Assembly (NCBI GenBank): GCA_963971425.1
Contig: OZ020522.1
Location: forward strand, 5,492,168-5,556,167
Reading direction: 5' to 3'
Length of the DNA stretch: 64,000 nt
Origin: Bryoerythrophyllum caledonicum
Lineage: Eukaryota > Streptophyta > Bryopsida > Pottiales > Pottiaceae
How positions within the stretch are numbered: position 1 is the stretch's first letter; each line of letters opens with the position of its first letter. This document shows positions 1,344 to 39,170 of the stretch, piece after piece. The position numbers and the translations under genes were made by a program. The notes under the pieces were generated by a model. The model saw nothing but the letters and a program-made list of their open reading frames with translations. It had not been told where the DNA came from and did no database searches.

Positions 1344-4154
1344 TCAATCAACACTCAAGGCTACAAATTGTCCACAAAAGATATCAGATTGTGGATTAAA
1401 TGGTGGAAATGGATCGTGATTACCTTCATACATTGCTCCTTCTTCGGCTCTTTCCTCAACATTGTTCCGCTCTGTTCGTTGTGCCCTGCGCAGTGCTTGA
1501 TTAGAGGGTCTTCCTCTACGAAGACCAAAGTATCCTCGAGCCTCGCCATTTGGAAGCATCGCCACTACCTGCTCTACGACATCTATCTCGTGATTTTCTT
1601 CACTTGCACCATCCATTACATCCAAAGATGCACTCTCCGTAGGTCTGGTGTTGGAGAACTCTGAAGGCCAAAATGGTGAGGAACGATGCTCATTGCTACG
1701 ATCTTTGTGTGGAAATTGACCCAAATAGAGTTTCAATCTTTCTGCCTCTACTTTTGTCTCACGATTCTTGTCCTCATGCTGCAATCTTTGGATGCACCTT
1801 TTTTTAAATACAATGAAGTCATCCAACGCCTCCAACTCCCGTTCATCCGCTGCAAATACTTCCACAAACGTTGGTCGCTCATCCCTACTTGGCAACGACC
1901 TCAAAGTTTTCGTCCCTGCCTCCGGTCCCCATGGATCCTTGCAATAATGCTTGTGTTGAACTCGAACCTCACGAGTGCCTTCTCGATTGTCCATATAGAA
2001 TCGCATGTGGTGCGAAAATGTTATGCCCACCAATGAATCCTGACCTGTCAGTAAGTGAGGAGTTATGAACAATTTCCAATCCCATACATTCTCTAGCAGC
2101 CGGGCGCTAACAAATGCCTCCGTAGGAGATGTTCCTCGTTCTATAAGACTCATCATTTCCTTCAACGAATCCACGTCCGACCTCTTCAACGTATTTGATA
2201 TACAACTGAAGCGTTGATCAATATCTTCGTGGGTATGGCCCACTATAAGAAAAGATAGTTCCACCTCCTGGAAAAACCCCAATCCCACCAATGTAGCACA
2301 TAGAGCAAACATATAAATGTTTTTGTTCTCGCGTGTGCAGTTGTCCGCCTGGATTCGCAATGTTGGTGGAAAAAAGCCCCTCCTCCGCAGCACACTTCCT
2401 ATCACGTACAACAATGTACTCACGACTTGGTTGCTATCGTGTTTGTAGTGAGCTCCAAACCACACGTCGCAATATAAACCAATCCCATGTACAAGAGCAC
2501 CACACAAATGAGTCTTCACAAACCGGTGTTCAATGTTCTTCACAGTCTGACGCATCCTCGGTACCATGGTCGTATTCTGGTCCATGCCATCCACTATGAT
2601 GCACATGTACAACTCAGGGCTAATATAACACGACCTCTTGAATATCCAATAATGTCTACGTTCTTCCATCTGGTTGCGCAAATGCAACATAAACAATTCT
2701 TTTATCTTTATCCTTGCATCCACATTGGTCGTTCCCTCCATGGCACATTTATACTCCCAACAATGATAACACTTTGAGAATCTTGAGAATGGAGGTACCT
2801 GAACGTGGGGATACTTGATGCGCCACATCCTCCGGAACGAACTCATAGAAATGGTTTGTCCATTACAAATTCTCTTGACCTCCTCGTTCACGTAATTGAA
2901 TACATCAAATTTGGTTGTATTCATAGGAAGGAGAATGAGAGGCACCACTTCGTTGTCACTCTTACGGCGAATACACCGATGAGGTTGAGGACAACCAGCT
3001 TCATCGACAAACGATTTAAAGCATGCCTCTGCCGCAGACATTCTAGTGCTCTCTCTAATTGGATCTGAAAGGGTATTGCCGTGAATCGATGTCACTCTTC
3101 CATATATTACACAGTCCTTCTTCAATTGCTTAAAGCGCCTCTGTGAATATTCAACCCCAAGAGCGTAGGAAGCATTGCAAACTTCTTTCCCATCTAACTT
3201 TGTTACAAACTTGTCTCGATGAGTTCCTTCCGTCCTTGTATAAAAAGAAATCAGCATTTGTCTCATCCACGTACTTCGTACAGAAAAATCAGTAGCCCAT
3301 GCATTATATCGCATGTCCAATAGATACCTTGCTGGAACGTCCCTCAAACAATTGCGTTTGCATCCTCCTTGTGCCATTGCAATTTGCACGCTTCCAAGCG
3401 ATACCTTAGATGGTGCAGCTTCAGTCAATGATGGCTCTCTTGAATCTCTCCTTCTCCTATTTTGCATAGAATAGGGACGACGTGTTGGTCTAACATAAAC
3501 AAATCCATCTATATGGGGCAAATCATGGATATTTGAGAGAGTAGGTTGGGAAAACGGCGAATTTGCATCTACGGCGTCAGAAGCTTGACTACTACGTCGA
3601 GACCTCTCGGTGGATCCTGGTGTGTTGATGAATTCAGGAAAATCAAATTTTGGGGCCATCATTTGTGTAGGCGCTACCTGAGATCCAATGTCACCATGGA
3701 CACTTGCAATATCAGGTTCTACAGCCACTATACGTAGGAAAGACCGATGCCAACGAATGATCAAGCCCACACACATGCCAAGGCGTTCTCCTATAATCTC
3801 TCCGGTCCAATGCAATGCATCATCTACCCTAGTGATACGCACCGCCACCTCGAATGGAAACAACTTGGATCCATTCAATTCCATGCCACTTTTGAATGCA
3901 TGCTCCCTAGTTGCTAAGCCCACCACATTTCCTACTTCAGAAAGCAGTTCTACTGCCCTTTCCAATTCAGATGTCATGGTCCCATAAGATCTCTGTTGAA
4001 TTTGCCTTGCACGTGCTGCTCGTACTAATCGAGCCCCCACAGAGCTATTGGAATGCAAATTATCCCTTTGGATGTGTGGCCGTATTGAAGGAGTTTGAAT
4101 CGTGCGGCTCTCCATTATCACTATTGAAAACATAGGAACATTATGGCTGCACAT
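1344..4154 (-). CDS. DUF7869-type transposase-like protein
   Basis: A single uninterrupted frame of 936 residues. The N-terminal 250 residues are Ser/Arg-rich and probably disordered. A Cys-rich knuckle (KCYHCWEYKC, about residue 465) precedes an RNase H-like core with three acidic blocks: IIVDGMDQ (about 520), QADNCTRENKN (about 603) and FLIVGHTHEDIDQRF (about 640). The GHTHEDID signature with the upstream DN...ENKN block is what I recognise as the DUF7869 family, which occurs in many copies in algae, oomycetes, cnidarians and seedless plants. A DDE-like catalytic role is inference from spacing and multi-copy behaviour. The first ATG gives the longest frame; a Met about 13 codons later is also possible. 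The gene is divergent from the accessory gene at 8.3-12.1 kb. Confidence 0.75.
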   Translation of the reverse strand: MCSHNVPMFSIVIMESRTIQTPSIRPHIQRDNLHSNSSVGARLVRAARARQIQQRSYGTMTSELERAVELLSEVGNVVGLATREHAFKSGMELNGSKLFPFEVAVRITRVDDALHWTGEIIGERLGMCVGLIIRWHRSFLRIVAVEPDIASVHGDIGSQVAPTQMMAPKFDFPEFINTPGSTERSRRSSQASDAVDANSPFSQPTLSNIHDLPHIDGFVYVRPTRRPYSMQNRRRRDSREPSLTEAAPSKVSLGSVQIAMAQGGCKRNCLRDVPARYLLDMRYNAWATDFSVRSTWMRQMLISFYTRTEGTHRDKFVTKLDGKEVCNASYALGVEYSQRRFKQLKKDCVIYGRVTSIHGNTLSDPIRESTRMSAAEACFKSFVDEAGCPQPHRCIRRKSDNEVVPLILLPMNTTKFDVFNYVNEEVKRICNGQTISMSSFRRMWRIKYPHVQVPPFSRFSKCYHCWEYKCAMEGTTNVDARIKIKELFMLHLRNQMEERRHYWIFKRSCYISPELYMCIIVDGMDQNTTMVPRMRQTVKNIEHRFVKTHLCGALVHGIGLYCDVWFGAHYKHDSNQVVSTLLYVIGSVLRRRGFFPPTLRIQADNCTRENKNIYMFALCATLVGLGFFQEVELSFLIVGHTHEDIDQRFSCISNTLKRSDVDSLKEMMSLIERGTSPTEAFVSARLLENVWDWKLFITPHLLTGQDSLVGITFSHHMRFYMDNREGTREVRVQHKHYCKDPWGPEAGTKTLRSLPSRDERPTFVEVFAADERELEALDDFIVFKKRCIQRLQHEDKNRETKVEAERLKLYLGQFPHKDRSNEHRSSPFWPSEFSNTRPTESASLDVMDGASEENHEIDVVEQVVAMLPNGEARGYFGLRRGRPSNQALRRAQRTERNNVEERAEEGAMYEGNHDPFPPFNPQSDIFCGQFVALSVD

Positions 4155-4429
4155 TAGTCTAAATACTTGTACTAAATGTCAACCTTCAAAGCACCATTCA
4201 TATGATAAAAAATATGATTCTAAACACATATTTATTGTTCAAAATATAATGATGATATAGGACCTTTTGATGAAACAGCTTTGAAATGAAAAAAATAAGA
4301 ATTGGTAGAGCATAAACTCCTTGCACGGAGTCTTTAACCCTAAAGGTACAATGACAGTCTTATACCAAAAACACTTTAAAATTGATGGATTCTAGTGCAA
4401 TGAACAAAATAGAAACAAAAACTTTTATT
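4155..4429. promoter_or_regulatory. Upstream region of the transposase-like gene
   Basis: AT-rich non-coding DNA before the transposase-like start codon. It should hold that gene's promoter, but I see no clear TATA box or other defined site. Confidence 0.3.
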
Positions 4430-8277: not shown

Positions 8278-11200
8278 TTTTTTGAATGTTGCGTTATGGC
8301 ACCACCAAATATTGACAGAATCTGGGAGAGCCACGGCTGGTCGATTGCGGAAGTGGATGAGTCGAACGCCTTCTTGTGGGTGACGGATTAACCCTTTGAG
8401 CTGGGGAAGCGTACATCGGCGTTGGGGAAGAGTTTTGGCAAAATCCAGGCAATCACTCTTCGACGTGATGATATGGTATACATTACTTGCGCAGTGGGTC
8501 CAGGTCAATCGGAGGTGAAGACTTCTCTTTCGAAGAAGTTGCTTTTGGCACCTGTCCCTTTGAATCTTCTTCAAAATCCAGGTCAAGTGAAATTCCTCAA
8601 ATCATTGCAGACGTTTTGGTTGAACATCTCTCTTGCGGTACGTACTGCTAGACACAATAACGTCTTAGCCTGTTTAGCGTTATCACTGGAAATGGTGTGG
8701 AAAGCTAAGAAGATTATGGAGGAACATATTAGATATGAGGCATTTCGGGACAGGGACCCATCACGTGCGACAACTGAAGCCCCACCTGCGGAACCAGAAG
8801 ACACTGAAGTTTATCGAATTATTGCTCAGCCGTTGCAATTGGATTGGCGACCACTGGAGGGGGGGAGGGGAAGTGGAGGCCAACATCCCACCACAACTTC
8901 TGAGGTACAGACATTACCGAATCCTCCATTAAGGAGTAGACGTCCTACGAAGAGGCCACGGCGTGTTGAGAGTGATGTAGCTTCTGGTTCGAGAGAAGGC
9001 CCATCAAGTTTGGATCCAAGCGCGAGAAGGTTGATGGGAAGAAGTGTAAGATCCGGTGGCAGGGTTCCTAGGTCGGGGCTCAGGACGTCTGATGGTCATC
9101 GTAGGGCCCCTATATCTACACCGGGAGATTTAGCTGATTTGTCAGCCATGGCGTCAGAGGAAGAAACATTTCACAACCTATCAGACAGTGTACTAGAGGA
9201 TTTTGAAGACAATGCGGGGATACCACAGGATGTTCCAACTTCTATGTATTAAAAGCACTAGTGCCTACAACGGAGGAGATTGCAAAAGGATCGGTGTGGG
9301 GGAATTTTGTGTTTAAGGCACACATAGACCGCATTGTTTCTGTGGAGAATCCGGAAACAAACCACCGGGTTTTATCACAGAAGAGGGTCAGAGAAGTATT
9401 TAACCGCGTAAGAGACCCTGAATCCGCGAGTCGAGTGAGTAGATTGGTACTTCGACCGATCAGATACATCGTGCATACTACCGCCGAAGATGGTGTCGTT
9501 GAGAAGGAGGAGTTGTCATTTCCGTTGGTAGGAACCGCACGAGAGTTTGAACGCATGTTCATTGCACACGGGAGTGCTTCTGCACAGCGTGCTATGGGAT
9601 CCCAGTATTCTTGGCTTCAAGATCATATCATTTGGGAACCGGTGAATGGGCAACATATAGTAGCAACTTGTAAGTTTGCACAGCAACAGTGGAGAGATGG
9701 TACTATGCCTTTAAATGAGTACCTGGACACGTTCGAGCGGCGGGAGGCCTCTTTTGTGGTGTATGATGATCGTCGCTTTTATATTGAGAAGTCTGTGCGG
9801 ATCAACATGGCGGAGTTCCAGAGACAGTCATATTCTACTATGGAGGAGGATTTGAGGAAGCTCCGTCAGATTTGGGATTTATACGGGAGGCCTGATAACA
9901 CAGTACGTGCAGACTATGCACACAGGGCTGTTGCTTTGGTGAGTGCGGCAAGTGCAGTGCATAAGTTGCCCAGGGGGGATGGAGTTGTCACGGTGAAGAG
10001 GTTGGCAAAAACATGGAGGATCTTATCAATCATGCATGGAATCCGAGCAATGATTGCTTCGAAGCTATCATACAAGTATGCAAGGACAACGAAGACGGCA
10101 TTCTCTTTTACAGCAAGGAAGAAGATAACAAGTGGAAGGACATGGCAAAGAAGAAAGAGCTGGATCCAAATGTGGACGTACGACCAACAAGAAAAGAGAT
10201 GACCCAGAATTGGTTGAGGCCGTTAGGTAGGGTTCCGAATCCATATTATCTTCGGTTGGCAAAGTCTGCTGTAGCAAAGCCGGTGAAGGAGGATGGAGTA
10301 AGACCTCGTCAAGCATATTACTTCGACGGTGTAAAAGACAAGAATCAACATCCTCGTACGATTACTAGTGTGGTTGACCGATATCAGAGACGAGAAGCTG
10401 TGATGAATTCCATCCGTTGGTTGATGGTGGAGAACAAGGAAAGTACACCTGATTCCATGGAGGAGTTCTTTCGTATCCGTGTAGGGAAGTATTTTCCGAG
10501 GAGTAACGCACAACTTGATACCTTTGGAAAACTTTTGAATGCTGCCACGAAAAAAGCTTGGACTGCTCCTATGCGGGGGAAGGTGTCTAAACTGGAAGAC
10601 ATAGGCTACCTCATCCCCCCTTCCATCAGGTTTCATTATGGTGACATTGCAGCAGGGGGGCGTGGATACATTGGACTGTCCGTGGATGTGGGAGGACAGA
10701 CTACTGCTAATTGGGAATGGCAGATAGAAGTCAAGAGGCCAGGCCAGAGCGACACAGAGAATCTTCTTTCGATTCGGTGTAGAAGAGGGTTATTCCGCAC
10801 CGACTACATAGAGCTGGGAAAACCATGTTTGTGGGTGATTGATTGTCGACGTGGCGGTGGGAGGCATGGAGATGGTCATTGGGGAGACGCTCAGTTATCC
10901 GCAGCTTTTGCACAGCTGACATTATGGATGGCAAATATTGAACGATGGAACGTCATTTTCTTGTTACCAGCGGCCGTATATGCCAACAAAGAGTTTTTCA
11001 CGAAGGTGAAGCTTCCAGAGGGATGTACTATACGACGTGGATGTTGGGCATTTGATCCGAACTCGGTTAATCCCTATGCTCTCGATTTTACAGAGAATAG
11101 GCGTCTGGAACAAGTAGTACAACCGATTGGCGATGTTGTCATTTGTATGCAGCACCCTGTGGATACATCTCCTGGCCCGAACTATGTTTCTGGAGACGTT

Positions 11201-12064
11201 CCACTTCCACTTGTTTTTCTGGATCACTGGAGTGAGGCACGCCAACCCTCTGAGGTTGATTCACTTGAGAGATCTCCATCAGAGCTGGCAAGACTAGTGG
11301 GCTCATACTTGCCCCGTGGTTGGGGTTTAGTGGCGTGTAACATATCTACGGCCATTCCCACGATCCTTGAAGGAGATTTCCAGGGATCTGAGGTTTTCAT
11401 CATTGACGATTGTACAGACAGAGTTTTATTTCTGTACAATGAGCTGTCTGATAATTTCCAGGGACAACTGTTGGTCAGGACTGGTGGAACAAGTACTGGT
11501 TGCAACATCGTATCTGAGACCGAAGAGGCGGTTGGTGGAGTGAGGAATGAAGACGACAATGAGGATGGAGGTGGTTTACATGAGAGATTGTCACGTTCAG
11601 GTACCACTGAAGATTTCTCATCTCGCAGTGGTTCAGACGCCGATGAAGATGGAGTGAACCAGTCTCCTCCTAGACAGAGGATTCCATCAACGCAGGAGGC
11701 GGTGGGAGATACTTCAGGAGAGATGTTAGCAACACCTACCGAGAGGATGCAAGATACCGGTGTAGTGGATGTTGGTTTGGCGGCAGGGGCAGGAGGGGGG
11801 CGTACATTTGATGGTCCTAGACTGGAGATGGAGGAAGAAGAATTGGATTCATTGGAATTTTTTTCGGTGTAAAGGAGGATTCCACAGTCTTCGATGCCTT
11901 CTCAATCAGAGCCTGTATCGGAGACACAAGAGATGTTCGGAGGTACTCAGAGTGATACCAGACCAGGTTTGCCTTCCGTTCCAAGATCTAGCGTATCCGA
12001 GGACATCATTGCATTTCAGGGGGCCTTCTCGTTAGAGCAAGAGATGTCCTTCAATCCAAAGGAT
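8278..12064 (+). pseudogene. Large accessory gene of the DNA transposon, unknown family, left part
   Basis: Long open stretches in the plus strand encode more than 1,100 residues in total. They are interrupted several times, so this copy is degenerate unless some gaps are introns. I do not recognise the family. The N-terminal part (about 8278-8720) is compact. A low-complexity Arg/Ser/Pro-rich linker follows (about 8750-9150). A large globular region (about 9260-11500) contains GDIAAGGRGYIGLSVDVGG, a Trp-rich WEWQIEVKRPG block and CLWVIDCRRGGGRHGDGHWG. The C-terminal 150 residues are acidic and Ser-rich. It is divergent from the DUF7869 gene, as expected for a two-gene transposon. An LTR element interrupts it at 12064/12065 and the frame resumes at 21755. 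Confidence 0.6.
12061..12064 (+). repeat. Target-site duplication GGAT, left copy
   Basis: GGAT precedes the first base of the LTR element and is repeated at 21751-21754 directly after its last base. The accessory-gene frame reads Lys-Asp at the left copy and continues Asp-Gly-Phe-Phe at the right copy, which independently fixes both insertion boundaries. Confidence 0.85.
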
Positions 12065-12423
12065 TGTCACGGGACGTGGAGTCGAGGGTCTCTCCGTATC
12101 GTAGATTTTAGCGTAGATTAGTTTGTTACTAATCTACGTGTGTTTAGGGACGAACGGCGGCGCACCGTTTTCATCCGTGGATGATTTTCATCCACGTAGG
12201 GTTGTTTGCGTGTGCGTGTAGCGCCGCACACGTCCTTGACTTGACGTCTTTGTCAAGTCAAGCTTTGTGAGTGAGTTAGAGAGTGTTTAGTGATTACCTT
12301 TGCTTGTAAGTGATTGTTTATCATTAGTAAAGGCTCCGCATTCTCTCATACTTCTTACACTCGTTGATTCTCCCTTTGTGGAGTGCGAGACGCTTGACTA
12401 CCCTAGTGATTTGCTAGCCATTC
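12065..12423 (+). repeat. Left terminal repeat of the LTR element (segment B)
   Basis: 359 bp beginning TGTCACGGG, repeated at 21286-21644 with five differences, four of them transitions. It contains a CTTGACTT/AAGTCAAG hairpin. Unlike the right end it is not followed by the segment of about 105 bp called A here. Confidence 0.85.
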
Positions 12424-13669
12424 ACTTGACAAAGACCCTCCTACGTTTCTTGCAATAGTTCTCAAATTTGACATTGAGTGATTTGAAAAAAAATTGTGGG
12501 TAGTTTAAATTTTCGTGTAGAGCGCGCGGAGACGAAGCCGACGCCACCGACGGCGCCCAAATCGGACGATTTTTGGAGAAGTTGTGGAGATTGGAAGTTG
12601 TGGAGCAAGAAGTTCTGGAGTTTCTGGAGTTTCAGCAGTTTCATCCAATTTGCGATTTCTCATCCAATATCGACGTTTCATCCACTTCGCACGACTTCAT
12701 CCATTCGGGGTAGTTTTCATCCGGGTACGCAATTGCTCTAGGGTCGCAATTCCGTTAGGGACCCTAAACCGTGCCGAAGTTCCCAATTCCGTTACTTTGA
12801 GTGCTGAAATTTCATGGAGTCCCTGGAGTTGAAACATCAAAAACCCAACTTTTGGAGTTTTTATTATTTTTCAATTCTGACTTCGAATTTGAGTTCGTGG
12901 AAGAATTCTAAGACTAATGGTGTAAAAAATTTCTAGTTTGCAAAAAAAATTTGGTGAGTTTTTGGACATCCCGAAAACAATCACATGTTATGTGATCTAT
13001 TAAAAATAAAAATAAAAAATAAAAAAAGTGTTTAGTGTCTAACTTCGGAGGTAATTAGCTAGTGCAGTTTTACTCTAGTTTTGAGTGAAACTTGCGTTTA
13101 TAATTAAGGAATCTCGTCATTTATCCAATTTCTAGTATTGGATTGACGTTTTGGCACGTTTGTCACCCATGGTTTGAACTTTGTTGAGGGACTAGTGTTT
13201 TTGAACACCGTGACCATAGGATTCTATTACCTCCTTAGTTTTAGACATTGGGGGAACACCTTGCGGTGTTTCTCTTTGCTTTTGTAGGTGTTGCGACTCG
13301 GAGCCAACCACTGCAGGCGTGTGCCAGTGGCTCTGACTCTTTTGTCAATTTTGCTTATATGTTGTTGGGGGAGAGGATCCGGTTTGGATTTTCTGGATTC
13401 TTGTGCGGTACCTCCCCCATGTTGCGGGTTTGTTGCCGGTGTTTTTCGGTGGCCCCATTTCTCGTTGTCCCAGGTTGTGATAGGGTATTGTAGGGGTGAA
13501 GTCGGGTTCATGGCCGGCAAGAGCTTTCTATGTGGGGGGTTGTGGTTGGACCTGTGCTAGCCGGAGGTAATGACCGGTGAACCACAAAGTTTGGTGATTT
13601 TGCAGGTGCAGGTTGCCCGTTCGTACCCTTACCTTTTAGATAGTACCCGTAGATAGGTCCCGAGGTGGT

Positions 13670-15100
13670 TGTTGTTTATGGTGAGTACCCGGAGTCGGTA
13701 TTACCGCTCCCCCTCACCAGACCACTCGGAGAGTGCTTCCACCACAGATTTTGGGCCAGGGTCGGATACCGACGAGGCTTTTGAGCCTGTTTCGGCGTTG
13801 GATACCGATCGTAGGCTTCGGGTCTGGGGCGTGGGCACGTTTGACGACATGGAGGACGATCTTCGTCATGTCGTGCGAGACAGGTTCTCGGGACGGGTTG
13901 GGGGCATCTCCCTGCCCGATTGGCGGCTCCGATTCCAAACCTGGATGAAGGAGAAGCGCCAGCGAACGCCGTCGTTTAACGACTGGTATGCGTTCGAGCT
14001 TTTGCCCCAGCATTTGGAGCTATAAGCGCTCCAATCGTACGGGAAGTGGACTACGCAGCACGAGGCACAGTTACGTCCGGTTGATGAGTACTGGCGCCAG
14101 CGTGTGGAGTTGGTGACTGCGCTCAAGGAGAGTGCAGTTGCCCAACTGCCGACTTCCACCGAGGAGCCTAAGGTGGAAGAGAGTCTCTTCGGGGAGGACT
14201 CCAGGGGCAAGGGTGTTGCCATTGTGGGCGAACGGGTTGGCATGGGGGCCATGTCCCGTTTGGCCGTTGCCACACGTGCGGCATTGATGGCGGTTGGCGA
14301 TCCGCCTGCCTTTGATCCTCTAGCGCAGTTCATGGCGCATTTAGAGGTGGAGTACGGGGGCTTCAGGCGTGATCAGATGCAGCGCATCCAGGATTTCCGC
14401 CGGGAGAAGGAGGATACCCCACGCACCATGTATACCTGGTTGGCACGGTTGTCAGCTGAGGCTGGTGATGTGTTCACGGAGCGCCAACTAGTGAAGATCT
14501 TCATCTCCAAGTTGGACAAGAGGATGGTGGAATTGATTAGTCCACATCTTCTTTTTCGGTATCCTGGCAACGCCACTTTGGCTCAGGCGTTCGCCGAGGT
14601 GGAAGCGCTCGATAGAGCACTGGGCGTGAGCGAGGCCATTGATTTAGTGACGTCCCTATTAGAGGCTCCCAAGCCCAAGAAGCTTGCCACCACCACCGGT
14701 AGCTTGGCGGAGGCACAACCTGAAAAGGTTGTGCATTGTTGGGCTTGTGGGGAGGCTGGTCACACCAAGGGGGACCCCAACTGTTCCAAGAAGAAGGGGG
14801 CAGGGGCGGTGAAGGCCAAGCCCAAGACTGAGGCAGCCAAGCCTGCAGAGAAGGCTGGGGGTAAGGGGAACAAGCTTGTGACATGTTCTCACTGTAGCAA
14901 GACTGGCCACACTGATGAGAATTGCTTTTCTCTTCATCCAGAGAAGCGCCCACGGTCTTCAGTTGTTGGATCGGATGCGGTGAAGACACTGCAGGCTGAA
15001 CTGGCGGAGCTGAAGAAGCAGATGAGTGCGATGGCTTCTTTGGGGCAAGTGGCAGAGACATGGCCTCCATCGAGGGGTCATGGCTCATCTTCAGCCCTAG
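13670..15100 (+). other. Gag region of the LTR element with two zinc knuckles
   Basis: Retrotransposon Gag-like region followed by two CCHC knuckles at about 14730-14790 (CWACGEAGHTKGDPNC) and 14880-14930 (CSHCSKTGHTDENC). A Gln/Leu-rich coiled stretch follows. Knuckles of this type bind the element's own RNA during particle assembly. Fossil: part of the broken element. Confidence 0.8.
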
Positions 15101-15769
15101 ACCGCTACTTGTATGGCGCTTCAAGGGAGGTGGTGGCAGCAGTGGCCACTCGTGCTCAGACTATTGCACAAGTAGTGGCACCTTCATCCTCTGTGCCGGT
15201 TAGTAGTGGCCGTCCACGCCACACGGGTTTGCCGGACCACATTGGTCAGTCCCGGCTACCACTTTCTTTTGGCATCGCGGATGCGGCTATTTCTACTGCC
15301 TCTTCCACTCCGCCCCCGGTCCTACCGCTTTCTTCCACTCATGGGGATGCCGCACACACCTTGGCGTATAAGGTGTTGCAGTTGCCCGTGTTTGCCGGTG
15401 TGGATTTTCTGACACCGGATTTTCGACCATCTGGTGTATTCCACTTGGCAGGTAGTATGTTGGAGGGCAAGGTGCCCATGCCTTCATTGGAGGTGTCGCA
15501 GGCGGTGACGGCTCCACCCATCGAGGAGGATTTGGTGGCATTACGGGCCAAGTTGGCGGCGGAGGCTATTTCCGTGTTTGAGGCCAATGCCACTTCCACA
15601 CCTACGGAGCAGTCCTCCGGGGATCAGTCATTGATCTCTGGAGTGGCTTATTTATCTGACATTGGAGCCCGGTCGGCACGAGAGCGCCGTAGTGTGCGTC
15701 CAGGGATTGTACGTTTGGTGAATGACGACGGAGTCATGGTGGTTAGCCGTACGGACGGCAACCCCACTC

Positions 15770-15960
15770 GAGCTACCCTCTTGCGTGTTATGTTGGACTC
15801 TGGAGCTCAGCCAGTGATGATTGGCAAGCAGCTAGCCCTGGATTTGGGTCTAGGTGCTTCGGACCTCGAGCCTTGCCCATTTACGATTGTTACATTGGTT
15901 GGAGGCACGGAGAAGGCCATGGGGTACACCCGACATCCGTTACAGTTGATGTTCGGTGTC
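15770..15960 (+). other. Aspartic protease segment of the LTR element
   Basis: The retropepsin signature LDSGAQPVMIG and a downstream hydrophobic strand region identify the protease that processes the polyprotein in this family. It sits between Gag and the methyltransferase domain. Confidence 0.75.
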
Positions 15961-16449
15961 GGATCTGGTCCATTGTTCTCCCACGTATCCCTTTAGTGTG
16001 CTGTGACTGGTGCCACCAACTATGACATTCTGGTGGGTCAGCAAGCACTTTATCCTCTCGGTTTTGGAGTGGATAATTGGACGGAGGAGGCCTGGATTAG
16101 GCCTGGGTGGTCTGCCGGTGATGGCAGAAAGGAGCTCATTCCGGTTGTCTTCGCAGCTAGCGCGGTGACTTCCGCGGCGGACGCTATGTTTGGGTGCAGT
16201 GCGTTGGCTTTTGATTTGCCATGTGGTTCTACGCTTTTGGAGGAGACATATGCTTTTATGTCAGGGGTAGCGGAATCACGGGAGTACATACCACTACAGA
16301 TCCCTGCACGTCATTGCAAGGATCCAGTTCTGCCTTGGGGAACTCAGCTGGAGCTTACCCGTCGGAGTCGGGAGATTGTGGATGCTTTGGATGCTCCACA
16401 TCTCTTAGTGAACTCTTCTACTCCGCTGTTGGCTCGTACAATTCAGTGG

Positions 16450-17460
16450 CAACCACCAGATGAGGGTATTACCCTCGTGGAGCTATTTGCCGGTATCGGT
16501 ACGGGGCTCGCGGCTGTGTTAGAAGCTGGGCTCAAGGTACGCCGGTACATTCACGTCGATAGTGGCTTTGCAGCCAATCGAGTTGCTCACCACCACATTC
16601 AGCGTCTTCTGGCGTTGTACCCGAAGCAGTTACCATCTTCTGCGATTCGAGGGTGTTTTGGCAAGTTGCCACATGATGTGACGTTGATCAGTGAGGATGA
16701 TCTTCGCCGGTTAGGTCACGTGGACTTGGTGATTGCCGGATGGCCTTGCCAAGGCCATTCACGGGCGGGAAGTGGACGTGGCTTGGATGATCCACGGTCG
16801 GGTCTCTTTGTGGATTTGCTCAGGCTCGTCCAGTGGTGGATTACCCACCAATCGACACCACCGGGGTACATTTTTGAGAATGTACCCCCATTGGGGGATA
16901 CACGGACGAAAGTGCGTGAGGATGGGGCGTACATCCATCACCTTCTTGGTCCCCCTACATTTGTTGATGCCGCAGCGTTGGGATCTTACGCCCATCGGCC
17001 ACGTTGGATTTGGACCAACATGGCATCATCCACGACGCTCACTTCTGCACTTGCTCAAGTGCAACGGCCCGTGCGCCGTGAGGTCGATGACATTTTAGAC
17101 GACCACCGTGTTTCCACGGAGGTTACGAAGGATGATGAGCCACCATTGGCGGTGGTCAACCGCGTTGGTTTCACTCGGGGGGCATTTCCCACTTTGATGT
17201 GCTATCCAGGCTCTTTTGCCTTCAGGTCACGCGGTCCGGGCATGGTTTGGGATTCTTCTTCCCAAACTTTCGAGGAGCCTTCTGCCGATGAGAGGGAGCG
17301 GGCGATGGGCTTTTTGACAGGCACCACCGCCGCACCGGATATCTCTGAGGGCCAACGCCGTTATTTGTTGGGTCAAGCCATTGACCTCAACACCCTTGTT
17401 TGGATATGTGGCCTCTGTTTCGCCGCTCAACGCCGTTCGAGTGACCATCCACGCGTGTTG
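16450..17460 (+). other. C5 cytosine DNA methyltransferase domain inside the LTR element
   Basis: Canonical DNA (cytosine-5) methyltransferase motifs occur in order. Motif I (SAM binding) is LFAGIGTGLAAVLEAGL at about 16480. Motif IV with the catalytic Pro-Cys-Gln is GWPCQGHS at about 16738. Motif VI is FENVPP at about 16873. A motif X-like LLGQAIDLNTL is at about 17370. Between VI and X lies a divergent target-recognition region. The enzyme class transfers a methyl group from SAM to C5 of cytosine. The domain lies between protease and reverse transcriptase, where Ty3/Gypsy elements normally have nothing. A role in methylating the element's own or host DNA is inference. Confidence 0.88.
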
Positions 17461-17889
17461 GGGGCAGACTCTGATGGTCAGGGGGCAGCGGTGCCACATC
17501 TCACAGAGATCGAGGAAGCGGAGTTGCTTTTTCGTTTGAAGAGGCATGCAGCTGAAGAGCTTCGTGCTCAGCGTGTCTTTGCAGCCTTGGCAGAGGACTT
17601 TGGCCGTGAGGATGCTCGGGATATCTTTTCCCAGTTTTATCATCACGACCCGGGATTTTCTATAGATCCTGTGAGTGAGGGGTGTGGGGGCATTAATGCC
17701 CTCTCTGCTACCAAGTAGCAATCACCGGCCGTGCCGGTACGCGGTGAGTCTTCTACGGTGGAGAAGGAGACCACGGAGTTTGATGATTGGCCTTTGGATT
17801 TGGGGCCACATCTTATTGGTGCCGAGGCACGAAGGGTACGAGCGTTTATACGTTCGTATCGTAGTTGTTTTGCCTTTAGTCTCCATGAT

Positions 17890-18620
17890 TTGGAGGGCTA
17901 TAGAGGCAAACCAATTCTCATTCAGTTGGAGGATGACCACCCGATCTTCCGACGACCGTACAAGCTCAGTCTCTCTGAGAAAGTTGGGGTTCAAACTCGT
18001 TGTCAGGAGTTGTTGGACGCCAGCTTGATTGAGCTCTCTAACGGCGAGTACGCTTGTGCCACGGTGATGCCATCGAAGAAGGACATCTTTGGCAACTGGA
18101 CGGAGAAGCGGATGTGTGGGGATTATAGGCCGGTCAATCGTAAGACCAAGTCGGATCGGTATCCCATGCCCACGCCAGAGGAGTTGTTTGATGCGGTGGG
18201 ACACGCCAGAGTATTTAGTACTCTGGATTTGCGGTCCGGTTACCACCAGTTACCATTGATGGTGGAAGACCGGGTGAAGACCACGTTCTGGGGAGTTGAT
18301 CTGCATGGGAGAGATCAGCTCTACCATTGGAAGTTTCTCCCATTTGGCCTCAAGAACGCACCCGCTGAGTTTCAGAGGGTGATGGACCGGGTGTTGACCG
18401 GTTTACCGTTTGCCCGATGCTACATTGATGATGTTATCATTTTTAGTAGCAGCCCACAGGAACATGAGAGGCATCTTCAGGCGGTGTTTGAGAGGTTACG
18501 GCAGTGGGGATTGCGCTTGCACCATGGCAAATGCAAATTCTTCCATGACCGGTTGCCATACTTGGGACATATGATTGTTCCAGGAGGTCTTGGCGTGCAG
18601 CAGGCGAAGGTTGACGCGCT
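17890..18620 (+). other. Reverse transcriptase domain of the LTR element
   Basis: Ty3/Gypsy-type reverse transcriptase with RMCGDYRPVN, FSTLDLRSGYHQ, FGLKNAPAEFQRVMD and the catalytic YIDDVIIFS block at about 18420. The close match to the usual Gypsy motif order places the element in Ty3/Gypsy rather than Copia or Bel. Confidence 0.92.
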
Positions 18621-18629
18621 GCAGAAGAT

Positions 18630-19240
18630 CCCAGCCCCAATCGACGTGTCGCGGCTGAGAGCTTTTCTTGGCCTGGCGAATTACTATCGCCGGTTTGTCA
18701 AGAACTTCAGCTTGATTGCCAAGCCGTTGACTATTCTCATGGGGAAGGATCAGCCATGGACTTGGGGACGGGAGCAGCAGCAGACGTTTGCTACTTTGAA
18801 GCTGAAGCTCGGTTCAGCGCCTGTACTGCGGCGTCCAGATGCTACACGGCCTTTCCACTTGCATACAGATTGGAGTGCAGTAGGATTGGGAGCCGTGTTG
18901 ACTCAAAAGGATGATGAAAGACGGGAGTACGTTGTGGCGTTCGCTTCTAGGAGCAACAACAACGCGGAGTCCAACTATTCGTCCTATGAGGGGGAGGCCT
19001 TGGCCGCGGTTTGGGCCATAGCTCATTTTAGGCCCTACTTGTATGGGCAGCGTTTTACTTTGGTGACCGACCACCAGCCTTTGAAGTGACTCATGGAGTC
19101 TGACAAGCTTACTGGCAAGCTTGCCAGGTGGGCTTTGTTGCTCCAGGAGTATGATTTTGAGGTTGTACACCGGGCGGGCATCACGAACTTGGATGCGGAT
19201 GGTCTATCTCGCAATCCAAGTCCATCGGAGGAGGATTTGA
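18630..19240 (+). other. RNase H and connection region of the LTR element
   Basis: The FLGLANYYRRFVKNFS tether, then the RNase H block with HTDWSAVGLGAVL and the ALAAVWAIAHFRPYL and LVTDHQPLK motifs typical of Gypsy elements. Confidence 0.88.
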
Positions 19241-19579
19241 CTCGTGCCAGGTGGCATGGGGACTGTGACAGGGAGTCAGTCCCGGGGTGGCATGCAGCAG
19301 CCTACCTCACATTGATGTCTGGATCCACATCGACGTTGCCTGATATGGCAGCGGATGAGGAACCAGACAAGGCCCAGGTTGTTAGCGACGTGTGGGAAGA
19401 CGTTCCAGTCTTGCACAAGCTACAACATGGCACACTTCCGCCCGCTCTTTCGGCCATGGAGCGCGATCGAGGTGGACACCGGATAGCGAGGTTCCGTTGG
19501 GAGAACGGCCTTCAATTTCGGTTGTGGCCGGATGGAACTAGGCGCATAGTTCCCAGACCGGATTAGAGGGCTTCGTTGG

Positions 19580-20640
19580 TACGGCAAGTACACGAAGACC
19601 TTGGTCATTTTGGTGTGCGGCGGACTCATTCGATGTTGCGCAGTCAATATTGGTGGACCGGCATGTATCAGCAGGTGGCTATGTACGTTTCACGGTGTGA
19701 AGTCTGTGATCGGGTCAGATCCAGCTTCAACACATTGTCACCACAGTTGCAGCCTTTGCCCATCATGGGTTTGGGCTACCGTTGGTCTCTGGATTTTGCT
19801 GGGCCATTTGTTGTCACCCCACGTGGAGCCAAGTACGTGTTGGTGATGGTGGAGCACTTCAGCAAGTGGATTGAGCTTGTGGCATTACCACAGAACTCCT
19901 CGGAGTTGGCGGCCATGGCATTCCTTGACCGGGTGCTCACTCATTTTGGAGCCCCAGCTGAGGTGTTGACTGACCAAGGGCGTGAGTTCCTTGGTGCTTT
20001 CGAGGCTTTGTGCACCAAGGCTTTGATTGACCACCGTACGACTTCTAGAGATCATCCGGAAGCGGACGGTTTGGCGGAGCGTGTGGTTCAGACCGTCAAG
20101 CGTGGACTACGGAAGTATGGATTACTTCAGGGTGGCCACCGTGATTGGGATCTGATGATACCATGGATCGCCATGGGATACCGGTTTAGCCGGCAGGCCT
20201 CTTTGGCCGCTTTCAGTCCGTATCAGTTGTTGTACGGACGGGAGCCGATTCTACCCAGTTCTGTACGGGAGAAGTTGGCCCCAGTTGTGGACTTGGATGA
20301 TCCAGAGGTCTGGATCCAGTGTCTGCGTGACCGAGCGGAGTTCTTCAAGCGGGCCATGCCAATGGCCATGGAGAATTTATCCATCGCTCAGCACCGCGAC
20401 ACATTACGGTACGCTCGCATTCGCAGGGGCGCTTATCGACCTCAGTTGCGGCGTTTCTCCACTGGAGATTACGTTTATTTGCAACGTGAGGCGCCTACGA
20501 CGTTAGACGTCAAGGCCGGGCGCACCATTCTTCGTGTGAAGGATGTGTTGCCCAGTGGCATCTTGTTGCTGGAAGGCAAAGATGGCCGAGAGTGTCGGGA
20601 GCACTCCAAGAACTGCGCGCCCTGCCATTTGCCCATTGAT
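19580..20640 (+). other. Integrase domain of the LTR element
   Basis: The N-terminal zinc-binding HHCC region (HEDLGHFGVRRTH ... CEVCDRVRS) is at about 19590-19735. The catalytic core carries LDFAGPF, VLTDQGREF and the EADGLAERVVQ block with the three acidic residues at about 19790-20100. A C-terminal GDYVYLQR-type SH3-like segment is at about 20465. No chromodomain is evident; its usual place is taken by the PHD-like finger. Confidence 0.9.
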
Positions 20641-20669
20641 GGCTCCGTGCATCCTGAGTTGGCCGTTGT

Positions 20670-20840
20670 GCCACAGGGTCTTCCGTATTTTGTGTGTGGT
20701 GAGAAGAAGGGTGCGGCTACTATGTTGCTTTGTGACCATTGCCAGCGTGGTTGGCATATGGCTTGCTTGTCGCCGCCTCTCTCTACTCTAGCGTCCGGGG
20801 ATTGGACTTGCCCTCGTTGTCGGAGGTCTTCGAGTCACGT
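20670..20840 (+). other. PHD-finger-like domain at the end of the LTR element's coding region
   Basis: The segment contains MLLCDHCQRGWHMACLSPPL and a downstream DWTCPRC, the core pattern of a PHD zinc finger. PHD fingers commonly read the H3 tail, often its lysine-4 methylation state. At the integrase C-terminus it could guide integration to a chromatin type, as chromodomains do in chromoviruses. This targeting role is inference. Confidence 0.8.
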
Positions 20841-20862
20841 TTCACCCGATGAAACGGCTTGA

Positions 20863-21170
20863 ATTTCTCATAGACTTGTCATTGTGTGGTGCGTTGCCAT
20901 CCAGTTGGAGTTCCTGGTTTCGGTTCAGGGATAGGCAACGTGGAGATTGACCAAGGGATTGGCAATAAAATTGCCTAAGGCGATTAAAGATGGGGCTCAC
21001 ATTGCACCCGGCCTACCATCTCTTTGTTACTTCTTCATATGCTTATTGATTCGACGACGGCGACATCTTTGGCTGGATGCGTACAGTTGTTGCAGCGACA
21101 TCACCGTGGCGTTTAGTCTTATTAGTGTTGTTTGGTCCTAGCTGGATAGAGGGTCTCTTTATCCACTAGG
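20863..21170 (+). other. 3' untranslated stretch of the LTR element
   Basis: No domain recognised between the PHD-like finger and the G-rich tract that precedes the terminal repeats. Confidence 0.5.
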
Positions 21171-21179
21171 GGGGGCACT
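21164..21179 (+). promoter_or_regulatory. Candidate polypurine tract
   Basis: A run of seven G in CTAGGGGGGGCAC lies directly before segment A. A purine tract at this place normally primes plus-strand synthesis immediately upstream of the 3' LTR. Here it precedes segment A rather than the TGTC boundary. Confidence 0.6.
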
Positions 21180-21180
21180 T

Positions 21181-21284
21181 GAGGGTGTATTACGTATACT
21201 TGTTTTAGTTTATGTTTTTCGTTTATTTGATGTTGGTTAGGACTCTCGATCTGTTGTGGTTATCGATCTTTCTTTACACGACAG
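21181..21284 (+). repeat. Segment A of the LTR element, first copy
   Basis: About 105 bp beginning TGAGGGTGTATTACG and ending TTTACACGACA. It recurs almost exactly at 21647-21750, with one difference seen, and is absent after the left terminal repeat. Confidence 0.85.
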
Positions 21285-21285
21285 C

Positions 21286-21750
21286 TGTCACGGGACGTGG
21301 AGTCGAGGGTCTCTCCGTATCGTAGATTTTAGCGTAGATTAGTTTGTTACTAATCTACGTGTGTTTAGGGACGAACGGCGGCGCACCGTTTTCATCCGTG
21401 GATGATTTTCATCCACTTAGGGTTGTTTGCGTGTGCGTGTAGCGCCGCACACGTCCTTGACTTGACGTCTTTGTCAAGTCAAGCTTTGTGAGTGAGTTAG
21501 AGAGTGTTTAGTGATTACCTTTGCTTGTAAGTGATTGTTTATCATTAGTAAAGGCTTTGCATTCTCTTATACTTCTTACACTCGTTGATTCTCCCTTTGT
21601 GGAGTGCGAGACACTTGACTACCCTAGTGATTTGCTAGCCATTCCTTGAGGGTGTATTACGTATACTTGTTTTAGTGTATGTTTTTCGTTTATTTGATGT
21701 TGGTTAGGACTCTCGATCTGTTGTGGTTATCGATCTTTCTTTACACGACA
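21286..21750 (+). repeat. Right terminal repeat of the LTR element (segments B plus A)
   Basis: 465 bp starting TGTCACGGG and ending CACGACA, so the outer ends form the inverted pair TGTC/GACA usual for LTRs. It consists of B (21286-21644), matching the left repeat with five differences, and A (21647-21750). GGAT follows at 21751-21754. Confidence 0.85.
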
Positions 21751-21754
21751 GGAT

Positions 21755-35829: not shown

Positions 35830-38800
35830 TCAGACGTTGAATGAGCTCAGTTCCTGCCGTGTAGCAACCACCAGAGGGGTCTCTCCAGAATCGTCCAGGA
35901 ACTTCTCGTGCATGAAGGAGCTCTGCACAATATTCTCCGGTTTCGCAACCACCTCGTAACAGTAACAGCTTTTCAACCCCGTCACGCCTCTGTGGAATTC
36001 CGACGCAACCACCACATCAGGACGGGTTAGCACAACGTGAGCTTACAACCCAATAAGTATGAATGGCTTGATATCTGTCAATCGATATGGTTGTACATCA
36101 AATCTAAGCAACTTGTTAAGAGATAGTACCGCAAGAAAGACCAACGACTGGGGACTCAGAAATGTAATTTCATGCGTTTCAGAGAGAGCAAGACTATCAT
36201 CTTTAGTTCCAACTCTGTAGATTCAGCCAAGCTCTCCCACTAGAAAGTACCTGTAGCAATCATGGTTGTTGTCCTTGACAACATCAAAGTCCCACACCAC
36301 CGTGAACGTTCCTGCAGAAACCACTAAGTGTCGTTCTTCCTTACCCTCCTCCGTGACCTGGCAAGATCAAAACCGTGCCCAGGTTAACGCAAATAGTAGA
36401 CAATCATAATGGCATTCAAAGCAATAGCAAATAAAACTAGCCTGCATCACAAAATAAAAAGACGTATCAAACGAACGACGTGAGGGCCACAACCGGATAC
36501 AAGGCAATAGATTCGCCTCTTACCCAAGAGAACTTGCCACCATGCAGCTTTTGTCGCTTCCCATCTCGGTTCGAATCGACTGGCAGCAGCTTCAGTAACC
36601 TGGGTGCGAAAATTTGACCCCCCATACGAGAATTGAACCCAGTTTTCATCTTCCCATCCTTGTCTTTGTACGATGTGCAGATCAGAATCAAGTATGTATC
36701 AGTGGTGGCTAACACCCACTTCCCATCATATGTCACATCAACGTGCGTAATGGGAGACCCCAATGAAGGGAACGCGGTCTTTGCCTGCAGTTAAATTTCG
36801 GCGTTCACAGGATCAGTGTGGCAACGACTTTAGACATTTCAAGAGTATCTCCGCATTATGATAAACACCATGGACTAACGATTCAACAAGGCAAGCCACA
36901 TTAATCGAGGAACAACTTCATTCACGACTTCACATCAGTCTACCATGTTCTCCTTCCAGACAACAAACACGGCTCAACCAACATTGTATTATGATATACT
37001 CAGCTGCTTCTCAAGCACTGATGAGATACCCACCATACGAGAACTCAGGATACGTGGCGTGAAGGTACCGATTGAGCATGAAAGCTCAAAGGTACAACTA
37101 CGGAAGAGACGTGTCTCGGAGATGAGAAGTTCACATGCGTTGAGCAGCAGCATATACCATACTCACATACTGTGCATACTACCTGTTTGTCCAGTAATGC
37201 AAGATGTAACCCACCAACTAAGAGCAAGACGATGATCTTTACCATTCTCATGCTCGTCGTCCCGTACAGCCTCACTTTGCCATCTGAAGACCCAACGACG
37301 ATGCTTCCATCTCCAGCAGTTGCAAAGCACTGGAAGTTGGTTCCTTTGGAAAACTGCACACAGCAAGTTCCAACTAATGAAACAGCCCATTTCATGCTCG
37401 AATACATAAAGGCAGCATAACAACAACACAACAGCAAATAATCAGCACCACTGAAAATCCTCACCAGTAGACCAAACTCTGCTCCTGAGATAGAAACAGC
37501 GTAATGACCTACCGCCACTACCAGTATCACAAGAATTTACTCGACATAGTCCGAGGAGTCATATTCAACTAATTTGCTATCACATACATCCACCACTACA
37601 AACACATATACATTCCACCACCTCCTACATCACACTCTGCCATTCATGACCTTACGTCCTTGGAATTCTTCACACAAAAATACCATAGCTGATCAAGGCG
37701 TGACTGGGTCCACGAACCTGGTGGCCCTCTGCCCACGACAGAGCAGCAGGACTGGCGAGTTGCTGAACGATTCCCTGAGAGTCTCGCATGTCCCACCTGC
37801 ACAGTCTGTTGTCATCCAACCCGAGGAAAGTCGAGCCCCCGCTGTACAGCTGCGCACCCTTGCTGTCGTTGGTCACGTCCCTCATCGTGATGGGAGTGCC
37901 GTCCTTCTCGAACTTCCACTCCGCCACCATCTTCCCCGTTCCGATGTCCAGCTGGCTCACGCCGCCAGCAGTTGACTTCCCATCCTTGGCAGGACTAATC
38001 AGCATCATGTCCTTCTCCCCTCTCATCAGCATTCCCTTCTTCGGGGTTCGGAAAATGTTGCTCCCGACACCAGACGGGGCCCGTCCCCCATCCTGGAACC
38101 GAATTGTCATGCCCGTGCCTTCCAAACCGTTGGTCCTGTTGGACAGCACATCCAGCCCGTAATCGTTCACCAGAAAGCTGTGGTCCAGGCCGCCCATGGC
38201 GAAGCTCTGGATGTTGGTCTTCGAGGGCGTCTTGAGCGTCTCCCTCAGCGGCGTGTACTTGCTGGGAGTCCGGATCACCTCCTCGGCGTCCTGCCACACG
38301 GCATCGTCCTCCTCCATGCCCTGGGCCCACCCCATGAACTCCTTCCCGTACACTTTCAGCTTGTTCGCCTCCGTCGGCTTTAAGAAGAACGTGTTCTCAA
38401 ACCTGCCAACACGCAACAAGACACCCAACACTGTCCCCTCAGTAAAAGGCCCTCTTATATTGCGTGAGCGAACTGACCGGGGTAACATTCTAAAAGATCT
38501 TGCCCAATTTCTTAGTAAGCTCTTCCTTCGAACAATTCACATCAATAGACTGTGCATGTAACAAACTCCCCGAAATACATGCAGCATAGAAATGTGTGTA
38601 AGGTGGTCCAACTCACTTGGCATCTTCGTACTCCGTAGAACAGGCTCGCAACTGGTCCTTGGTGAAGAACTTCAACGCCCACACACCTTTGGCCACGAAA
38701 TCCACCCGCAGCTGGTCGTAGGAGAACCGCATTTGGAGCTGATCGTCCACCCTCGCCCGCACGCCGCCCACCTCCAGCATCCAGAACTTGTAGTTCTTGT

Positions 38801-39170
38801 GCCCGGTTGTGGGCCTCCTCCACACCTCGTCCTCCTCATCATCCTCCTCATCAATCTCCCTCACGAACTGCCAACCCACGCTCTTCGCAGTCACCAGCCA
38901 CTTCCCCTGAATGTAGTGGTACAGCTTGGCCTTCTGAATCCCCGTCGCAGGCGGGTCGCCGAGGGAGAGCGAGCCCAGCTTCATGAGAATCGTGGGGTCG
39001 GGAGTTGAGAACCCAGCAGGCTCCCGTCGCGGCGGAGGAGCCGGAGTGCCTGCCTCAGAATCATGATAATCACTCCCGGGCGAGGACGACGGAGTCCGAG
39101 GCGACTCCAGACCGTCATCGTCCTCGGAGTCAGAATCCAAACGCCCCTCCCGGCTGGCTGCAGTCCCCAT
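35830..39170 (-). CDS. VID27/DEM-like (CYPRO4-type) WD-repeat-like protein
   Basis: About six exons on the minus strand: 39170 to about 38617, about 38402-37725, about 37355-37250, about 36783-36520, about 36358-36250 and about 35970-35830. The product begins MGTAASRE, a typical N-myristoylation context, and an acidic Ser-rich N-terminus follows. [13 protein letters not shown], a VID27/DEM hallmark, lies near the end of exon 1. Exon 2 holds [20 protein letters not shown] and the beta-propeller start. Later exons hold [42 protein letters not shown] and [11 protein letters not shown], and the protein ends [13 protein letters not shown]. Plant DEM proteins are needed for embryo and meristem development. 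Start choice rests on the MG context; an upstream in-frame ATG 27 bp earlier lacks it. Confidence 0.88.

Follow-up and report, generated by a model that had tools for sequence, protein, structure and literature searches.

A broken copy of a DNMT3-bearing Ty3/Gypsy-type retrotransposon family in Bryoerythrophyllum caledonicum, probably related to KnitGypsy-Dnmt3

A methyltransferase between protease and reverse transcriptase

The window analyzed here is a 64,000-nucleotide stretch of the genome of Bryoerythrophyllum caledonicum (Bryopsida, Pottiaceae; GenBank assembly GCA_963971425.1, contig OZ020522.1, forward-strand positions 5,492,168 to 5,556,167). Positions 12065 to 21750 of the window hold a Ty3/Gypsy-type retroelement in which a C5-cytosine DNA methyltransferase (DNMT) sits between protease (PR) and reverse transcriptase (RT) (Table 1). 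A single reading frame (13657 to 20862), interrupted by stops, spans the whole coding region. A first-pass annotation made from the sequence alone had proposed a Gypsy-type element carrying its own methyltransferase at this place, and the profile match that it had suggested as a check was significant. The open reading frame (ORF) at 15997 to 17718 matched PF00145 (DNA_methylase) at residues 159 to 304 (E = 1.8e-12; 47.7 bits against a cut-off of 22). Upstream in the same frame, Pfam gave a weak aspartic protease match (E = 0.0035, below the Pfam cut-off); downstream, it gave RVT_1, RNase H (RH), an H2C2/rve integrase (IN), and a PHD finger. By eye, the translation of ORF 14026 to 15996 shows two Gag zinc knuckles. 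Pfam returned no zf-CCHC match to them in the window copy, whereas a second family in the same genome (family 2, described below) does give one.

The order of PR (the weak match), RT, RNase H, and DDE integrase is that of Gypsy elements. In both families, rve and H2C2 were found and no phage integrase domain was among the Pfam matches, which speaks against a DIRS/PAT assignment. A frameshift between DNMT and RT was ruled out, since the two share one frame.

The window copy is broken. Besides a conserved UAG at 17716, its frame contains four stops (TAA at 14023, TAG at 15994, TGA at 19087, and TAG at 19564). The stop at 15994 is missing from two open copies in the genome (L012 and L016), and those at 19087 and 19564 are missing from L060, a closely related environmental contig. 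The second half of the coding region (ORF2) is uninterrupted in L051 (family 2; 1,041 amino acids [aa]) and in L060 (1,047 aa); these two supply the open-frame evidence for ORF2, other family-1 copies of the genome having been read over part of their length. By eye, compared with family 2, the PHD finger of the window copy seems to have its first Cys replaced.

Table 1. Features of the retroelement, in window coordinates
Feature	Position	Strand	Basis or remark
Target-site duplication, left copy, GGAT	12061..12064	.	Repeated at 21751-21754
A1 repeat, starts TGTCACGG; left end of element	12065..12429	+	98.4% identity with A2; self-alignment
ORF1 frame, Gag-protease-DNMT, ends at conserved UAG	13678..17718	+	Start is the first ATG, counted from the translation; window-copy stops 14023, 15994
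C5-cytosine DNA methyltransferase domain, DNMT3-like, canonical motif order	16450..17460	+	Pfam, PDB comparison, predicted fold
Conserved UAG CAA UCA, fits readthrough motif UAG-CAR-YYA	17716..17724	+	Alignment of loci
ORF2 frame, RT-RNase H-integrase (H2C2, rve)-PHD finger	17719..20862	+	Window-copy stops 19087, 19564
PHD finger, integrase C terminus	20692..20820	+	Residues 376-418 of ORF 19567-20862, E = 3e-10
Candidate polypurine tract AGGGGGGGCA, directly 5' of B1	21168..21177	+	Position alone
B1 repeat	21178..21284	+	99% to B2; self-alignment
B1-A2 junction ACACGACA-GC-TGTCACGG, outer ends fused, 2-nt spacer	21276..21293	+	6/6 further copies and L060
A2 repeat	21286..21649	+	Self-alignment
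B2 repeat, right end of element (...ACACGACA)	21645..21750	+	Self-alignment puts B2 at 21645-21751
Target-site duplication, right copy, GGAT	21751..21754	.	Matches 12061-12064

The methyltransferase domain is DNMT3-like by sequence and predicted fold

Motifs I (LFAGIGTG, 16483), IV (GWPCQGHS, 16738), and VI (FENVP, 16873) follow one another in canonical, non-permuted order, as the first-pass annotation had read them. The blocks AHRPR (16990) and LGQAID (17368), which we take to be the motif VIII and X regions, come after motif VI. Plant DRM enzymes have a permuted motif order, unlike this domain; animal DNMT3A and DNMT3B have the same canonical order.

The METHYLTRANSFERASE class was judged from a PDB-wide sequence search (phmmer), a profile of 24 relatives, and an AlphaFold model submitted to Foldseek. 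With phmmer, DNMT3A, -3B, and -3C were the best matches among all PDB sequences (37 bits); HhaI scored 28, 4onj (labelled just DNA methyltransferase) 20, and DRM2-labelled chains 18.5 bits at most. The profile scored DNMT3A at 91.6 bits, 4onj at 53.4, DRM2-labelled chains at 47, HhaI at 39.7, and tRNA-C38/DNMT2 chains at no more than 36. No chain named DNMT1, CMT, or DNMT5 was among the 56 rows of this profile comparison. The AlphaFold model had a mean pLDDT of 87.2 and a pTM of 0.88, and each of the best 50 of 202 Foldseek rows (E up to 0.001) was an entry for DNMT3A or DNMT3B, in some cases together with DNMT3L (best row, E = 4.9e-18). By sequence and predicted fold, the domain is a DNMT3-like C5 methyltransferase. 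Animal DNMT3A and DNMT3B are its best matches on both counts, whereas identity in the fold alignment is about 21% and the domain here is embedded in a retroelement polyprotein. Pfam found no PWWP or ADD domain beside the DNMT in the window copy or family 2.

In the 24-sequence alignment, the Pro-Cys of motif IV and the Glu-Asn of motif VI were invariant or nearly so. Two element DNMTs of Closterium (P0063 and P0069) have WECQG instead of WPCQG in motif IV, with the cysteine retained. Among 30 loci of the window copy's own family (family 1; 435 pairs), the ratio of nonsynonymous to synonymous polymorphism (pN/pS) was 0.160 for DNMT, 0.186 for RT, and 0.295 for PR and linker; the loci were the best DNMT matches, so that the DNMT value is biased downwards and the comparison with RT is indicative only. 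A domain that had lost methylation as its main role and become a nucleic-acid-binding or packaging part of Gag would suit its position as the last part of the Gag frame, where Gag-like stoichiometry is expected. Conservation of motifs IV and VI and a pN/pS as low as that of RT argue against such a loss, and we consider it improbable. Singleton CpG transitions per site exceeded the non-CpG rate 2.03-fold in DNMT and 1.33-fold in RT, an excess too weak for a claim of methylation-driven CpG decay.

A conserved UAG in a readthrough context separates DNMT from RT

The site at 17716 was examined in 30 family-1 loci including the window copy (L009). With L020 unaligned over the site, 29 loci were readable, of which 28 had TAG CAATCA and one had TAA CAATCA. 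In family 2, TAG CAACCA was present in 7 of 8 loci, L002 being unaligned; sequences flanking the stop and its context differ between the two families. L060 likewise has TAG CAATCA between a 1,162-aa frame and its intact 1,047-aa frame. The UAG-CAR-YYA context is absent from all five other stops in the frame of the window copy, including the last.

UAG-CAR-YYA is given as the type I readthrough consensus in tobamoviruses in the available text of PMC3542737. The element has the same stop and six-base context as these plant RNA viruses, whereas its readthrough is predicted. Because the conserved UAG and its context fit this motif in both families, the most likely arrangement is a Gag-PR-DNMT protein with DNMT at its end and a readthrough extension made up of RT, RNase H, and integrase.

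The terminal repeats are split

Self-alignment of the window copy (Table 1) and six further copies ruled out a reading of the ends as plain long terminal repeats (LTRs). The terminal repeats are split direct repeats in the plan A...B-A-B, not two plain LTRs. In the window copy, A1 and A2 differ at 5 sites and by one gap in 365 positions, and B1 and B2 differ at 1 in 107. A1/A2 identity was 98.4 to 99.7% in five copies, which fits recent movement. The first-pass annotation had taken low LTR divergence as a sign of recent activity; the low divergence stands, in repeats that are split and not ordinary LTRs.

The block B1-A2-B2 was found in all six further family-1 copies, with an interrupted B2 in L048. 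The junction ACACGACA-GC-TGTCACGG was present in the window, in all six (L040, L042, L044, L046, L048, and L050), and in L060. The element starts TGTCACG and finishes ACACGACA, so that its ends are TG...CA. Both ends are available for five copies (window, L041/42, L043/44, L047/48, and L049/50), and each is flanked by a 4-bp duplication: GGAT, ATGC, ATTT, TCTA, and GGTG. Ordinary Ty3/Gypsy elements make target duplications of 4 to 6 bp. TG...CA ends and short target duplications are common to such elements and the one here; an ordinary Ty3/Gypsy LTR retrotransposon, in contrast, has two identical, complete LTRs at its ends. A single family-2 copy was read, and its repeats follow the A...B-A-B plan too, though they differ in sequence from those of family 1 (A, 256 bp and 100% identical within the part read; B, 239 bp and 99.2% identical).

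As long as a single copy was available, A...B-A-B could have been the scar of a recombination or nested insertion with no role in replication. The B1-A2-B2 block of the six further copies, one of them interrupted, with an identical CA-GC-TG junction in all, speaks against this reading, as do the recurrence of the plan in family 2, its description in Klebsormidium nitens (PMC5890265, available text), and the 4-bp duplications that flank the A...B ends. It was already disfavoured, and we regard it as very improbable.

The element belongs to a large family, and the genome has a second one

A search of the 437-Mb assembly with the DNMT domain as query scored at least 119 matches, at 79 to 100% identity; this count is a lower bound from 2,252 first-look candidates. 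These matches ruled out a one-off chimera, an outcome that the first-pass annotation had named among those that would refute its reading. A stop lies inside the match in 45 of the 119 (recounted by eye). The 1,353-aa open frame that corresponds to window positions 13657 to 17715 was present in 12, nine of which are stop-free inside the match.

A PF00145 search of the genome scored 123 matches, and eight loci were fetched from it. Seven (L002 to L008) belong to a second DNMT-Gypsy family, family 2, six of them assigned by alignment across the DNMT/RT boundary and L002 by its translated DNMT start. The family-2 copy L051 has a 1,371-aa Gag-PR-DNMT frame followed by the 1,041-aa RT-RH-IN-PHD frame, with a PHD finger match at E = 2.3e-9. 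The two families are 54% identical in DNMT.

The eighth locus, L001 (G000:C14:16016358-16017317), is a different gene. It is a full-length, single-frame, bacterial-looking C5 methylase (218 bits) inside a 22-Mb contig, and a neighboring frame looks by eye like an insertion-sequence transposase. Horizontal transfer, contamination, and assembly chimera are possible readings of it.

Relatives occur in bryophytes and green algae in two architectures

Protein searches returned 72, then 55, and then 170 relatives; the second and third each scored 8,000 candidates, and the best 120 of the 170 were listed. Named hosts among the matches listed were Marchantia polymorpha (14 of 72), Calypogeia fissa (2 of 55), Klebsormidium nitens (P0196), Sphagnum fallax, S. 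jensenii, S. troendelagicum, Closterium sp., and Scenedesmus sp. The DNMT-Gypsy proteins of Marchantia, Calypogeia, Sphagnum, Closterium, and Scenedesmus are mostly annotated as hypothetical or unnamed and were compared from proteins alone. Marchantia proteins such as P0003 and P0009 have the order Gag zinc knuckle-PR-DNMT seen here, and the best Marchantia rows are 53 to 56% identical to family 2 in DNMT. The Scenedesmus protein shows DNMT alone.

A second architecture, RT-RH-DNMT-IN, exists as well. Among the 125 proteins of the 72- and 55-protein searches, 20 had this order (18 with a PHD finger), 25 had Gag zinc knuckle-PR-DNMT, and 21 had PR-DNMT. An integrase match was found in 33 of 202 proteins, and all 24 that reach at least 250 aa past the integrase have a PHD finger. 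In family 2 the finger resembles those of PHF12, KDM5, KMT2-type proteins, and CHD4, a likeness which suggests that it may read histone H3. Other Gypsy elements have chromodomains, and the PHD finger possibly plays a role akin to theirs.

Six loci in viral contigs were all partial matches. Of six loci in genome contigs, only L060 was close. The contig of L060 (CADCWO010000201.1) encodes a DNMT with 94% identity and is assigned to a Synechococcales (cyanobacterium) metagenome-assembled genome (MAG), and P0077, 76% identical in DNMT, comes from a Candidatus Obscuribacterales MAG; both look like contigs mis-binned under bacteria. L060:1-9254 overlaps itself by 96 bases and has one B-A junction, so that it assembles as a circle A-body-B. 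Repeat collapse explains this equally well as a true extrachromosomal circle. A further environmental protein, P0071, has DNMT at its extreme N terminus before RT-RH-IN-PHD; its branch is very long, and including it alters the DNMT tree strongly.

A probable common origin with KnitGypsy-Dnmt3

KnitGypsy-Dnmt3 of K. nitens and the retrotransposon-borne cytosine DNMTs of Symbiodinium were described by de Mendoza et al. in 2018 (PMC5890265); statements drawn from that paper here refer to its available text. A 2025 paper cites retrotransposon DNMTs again and, in the text available, names Copia and DIRS (PMC12344493). KnitGypsy-Dnmt3 resembles the element here in its Gypsy domain set, its Dnmt3-type DNMT in the coding region, its DIRS-like repeats, and the purifying selection reported in K. 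nitens (PMC5890265). The legend of Fig. 4c states that the K. nitens repeats have DIRS structure, the DIRS plan being A-coding region-B-A-B (PMC5890265). As described, the K. nitens DNMT is placed in the Pol polyprotein ORF (PMC5890265), a possible difference from the element here, in which it ends the Gag-PR frame before the UAG. The word PHD is absent from the main text available, whereas the element here has a PHD finger, and K. nitens has fewer copies than Symbiodinium (PMC5890265), in contrast with 119 matches of one family here. SymbioDIRS-Dnmt3 and SymbioLINE-Dnmt of Symbiodinium are likewise retroelements with a DNMT and many copies, and SymbioDIRS-Dnmt3 has A-coding region-B-A-B repeats (PMC5890265). 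The former is a tyrosine recombinase element and the latter a LINE, whereas the element here has a DDE integrase and 4-bp duplications.

The K. nitens protein P0196 has DNMT ahead of RNase H and integrase, in a gene model that is missing most of RT. A guess from its Pfam list that it was of the RT-RH-DNMT-IN type was ruled out by the domain positions, which put DNMT first. Its DNMT is 30% identical to that of the window over 85% of the query.

In a 42-row DNMT tree that used DNMT3A as its outgroup, the DNMT-before-RT rows came together in a 19-row set that takes in Klebsormidium and leaves out P0071 (support, 96/91), and the RT-RH-DNMT-IN rows were unresolved around it. P0071 joined the outgroup on a long branch that the program flagged as unsafe. 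In a tree without outgroup and P0071, the RT-RH-DNMT-IN rows stood apart at 100/99, and the window-Klebsormidium clade hinges on the root. An RT tree (32 rows) split the two architectures at 100/99, and its order was that of the DNMT tree: family 1, then family 2 with Marchantia. Since the orders agree, DNMT and RT travelled together in this part of the tree. A 26-row tree built on RNase H and integrase, where family-2 copy L051 represented the genome in place of the broken window copy, put P0196 among the DNMT-before-RT rows, apart from the other architecture, at 100/99; with this tree unrooted, a placement of K. nitens with the RT-RH-DNMT-IN type was not rejected (approximately unbiased test, p-AU 0.441).

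Several results make common ancestry of the window and Klebsormidium DNMTs less than firm. With the outgroup retained and P0071 left out (25 rows), their joint group fell to 38/19, against 96/91 in the first tree. A Klebsormidium group placed outside was not rejected (p-AU 0.347), nor was one beside the RT-RH-DNMT-IN rows (0.106), and K. nitens is represented by one partial gene model, P0196. These results, the distance of P0196 from the window DNMT, and the long branch of its group would fit a DNMT captured independently of the one in the Klebsormidium element. The trees contained neither host DNMT3 genes, whose place among the rows bears on such a capture, nor DNMT-less Gypsy elements. Independent capture is at odds with the 100/99 grouping of P0196 RNase H and integrase with DNMT-before-RT elements in that set of rows, and with the domain order and A...B-A-B plan common to K. 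nitens and the window element; we hold it to be unlikely, if still worth weighing. Gene order, repeat plan, and Pol make common descent with KnitGypsy-Dnmt3 likely, though not proven for the DNMT itself. The first-pass annotation had left a choice between an extension of the charophyte lineage and an independent capture, and the evidence leans toward the former without settling it.

A proposed life cycle

We favor, with somewhat more confidence than doubt, the reading that the window element is a broken copy of a large, recently active DNMT3-bearing Ty3/Gypsy-type family, probably of the KnitGypsy-Dnmt3 lineage, whose working copies follow the life cycle outlined here. Its readthrough, packaging, catalysis, cDNA methylation, circle step, and PHD targeting are steps that we infer. 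Working copies would be translated as Gag-PR-DNMT, with a minority of ribosomes passing the UAG in its CAR-YYA context and adding RT-RH-IN-PHD. Because DNMT belongs to the product ahead of the readthrough UAG, it would be produced in the same stoichiometry as Gag, enter the particle, and be freed by the protease. It would then methylate the new double-stranded cDNA before integration, most likely at CG, and the DNA would reach the nucleus already marked as self. Retrotransposon DNMTs are reported to be able to methylate CG de novo, and methylation of retrotranscribed DNA has been proposed (PMC5890265, available text). The first-pass annotation had suggested that a self-methylating element could hide from, or exploit, the CG methylation of its host, which is a hypothesis at this point.

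The internal B1-A2 junction, in which both outer ends are fused, would be the template that restores both ends, probably via a circle or end-joined form. The DDE integrase would cut at the CA-GC-TG junction and insert the DNA with a 4-bp duplication, and its PHD finger would steer insertion to chromatin. The circle or joining step was added to the model because ordinary reverse transcription, if primed at the G-run 5' of B1, would give B-A...B-A and not A...B. The form of the CA-GC-TG junction suggests that B1-A2 serves as the template on which both ends are finished or joined, and that such a junction may be what the integrase acts on.

Alternatively, the enzyme might act on the host, spreading CG methylation over host chromatin to the indirect profit of the element. 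Lying upstream of the UAG, it would exceed RT in amount; a low pN/pS is silent on which substrate is selected; and genome-wide effects in Symbiodinium are discussed in the text of PMC5890265 available. The DNMT is, however, in one frame with Gag and protease, an arrangement that predicts packaging, and we think a host target rather unlikely.

Other observations count against the life cycle that we favor, alongside the tree results and the selection bias in pN/pS given above. Should plus-strand synthesis be primed at that G-run, the ordinary product would be B-A...B-A, whereas integrated copies end in A...B. Four of the six further copies showed the A1 start; in the 5' pieces of the other two, L039 has part of A1 and L045 has none. 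One locus has TAA in place of TAG. RNA folding 3' of the UAG gave a stable fold in family 1 (z = -2.57) and not in family 2 (z = -0.43), and a shared structural enhancer of readthrough is unsupported. Since folding differs between the families, the supported readthrough signal is the hexanucleotide, with no shared hairpin.

More tentatively, and as a possibility that we would not press, these elements may form one Gypsy lineage with a DNMT3 module across much of the green plants, in which DNMT was relocated once within the polyprotein and replication follows a hybrid route. Streptophytes would then have DNMT between PR and RT, at Gag-level dose before the UAG-CARYYA stop, and a group including the Scenedesmus DNMT would have it between RNase H and integrase. 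DIRS-like split repeats would provide a circle-junction-like substrate cut by a DDE integrase with a PHD finger.

Other features of the window

The stretch directly upstream of the element, 8392-11872 (+), has three overlapping frames (286, 331, and 635 aa), none of which matched Pfam at E = 0.01. A 944-aa frame at 1344-4178 (-) contains DUF7869 (E = 8.9e-50) and is possibly part of another mobile element. A VID27-like host gene is represented by frames at 37670-39203 (-) (PF08553, E = 4.6e-7; DUF7135, E = 6.2e-25), as would fit a host among plants or green algae. Rfam gave no match within the window at gathering scores.

Implications

Elements of this type had been described from one green alga; here they are abundant, with relatives in mosses and liverworts. 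In a limited search of open-access papers, we did not meet the two architectures or the liverwort and Sphagnum DNMT-Gypsy cases. Nor did we meet there the readthrough context, PHD finger, or 4-bp duplications of DNMT retroelements, although any of these may have been published elsewhere.

DNA methylation usually has transposons as its targets; when a transposon lineage retains a methyltransferase under purifying selection, the question arises of what a transposon gains by methylating DNA. Land plants, among them the genetic model Marchantia, now offer a place to test it. The UAG context yields a concrete prediction on enzyme dose, and the split repeats together with a DDE integrase yield one on the substrate of integration.

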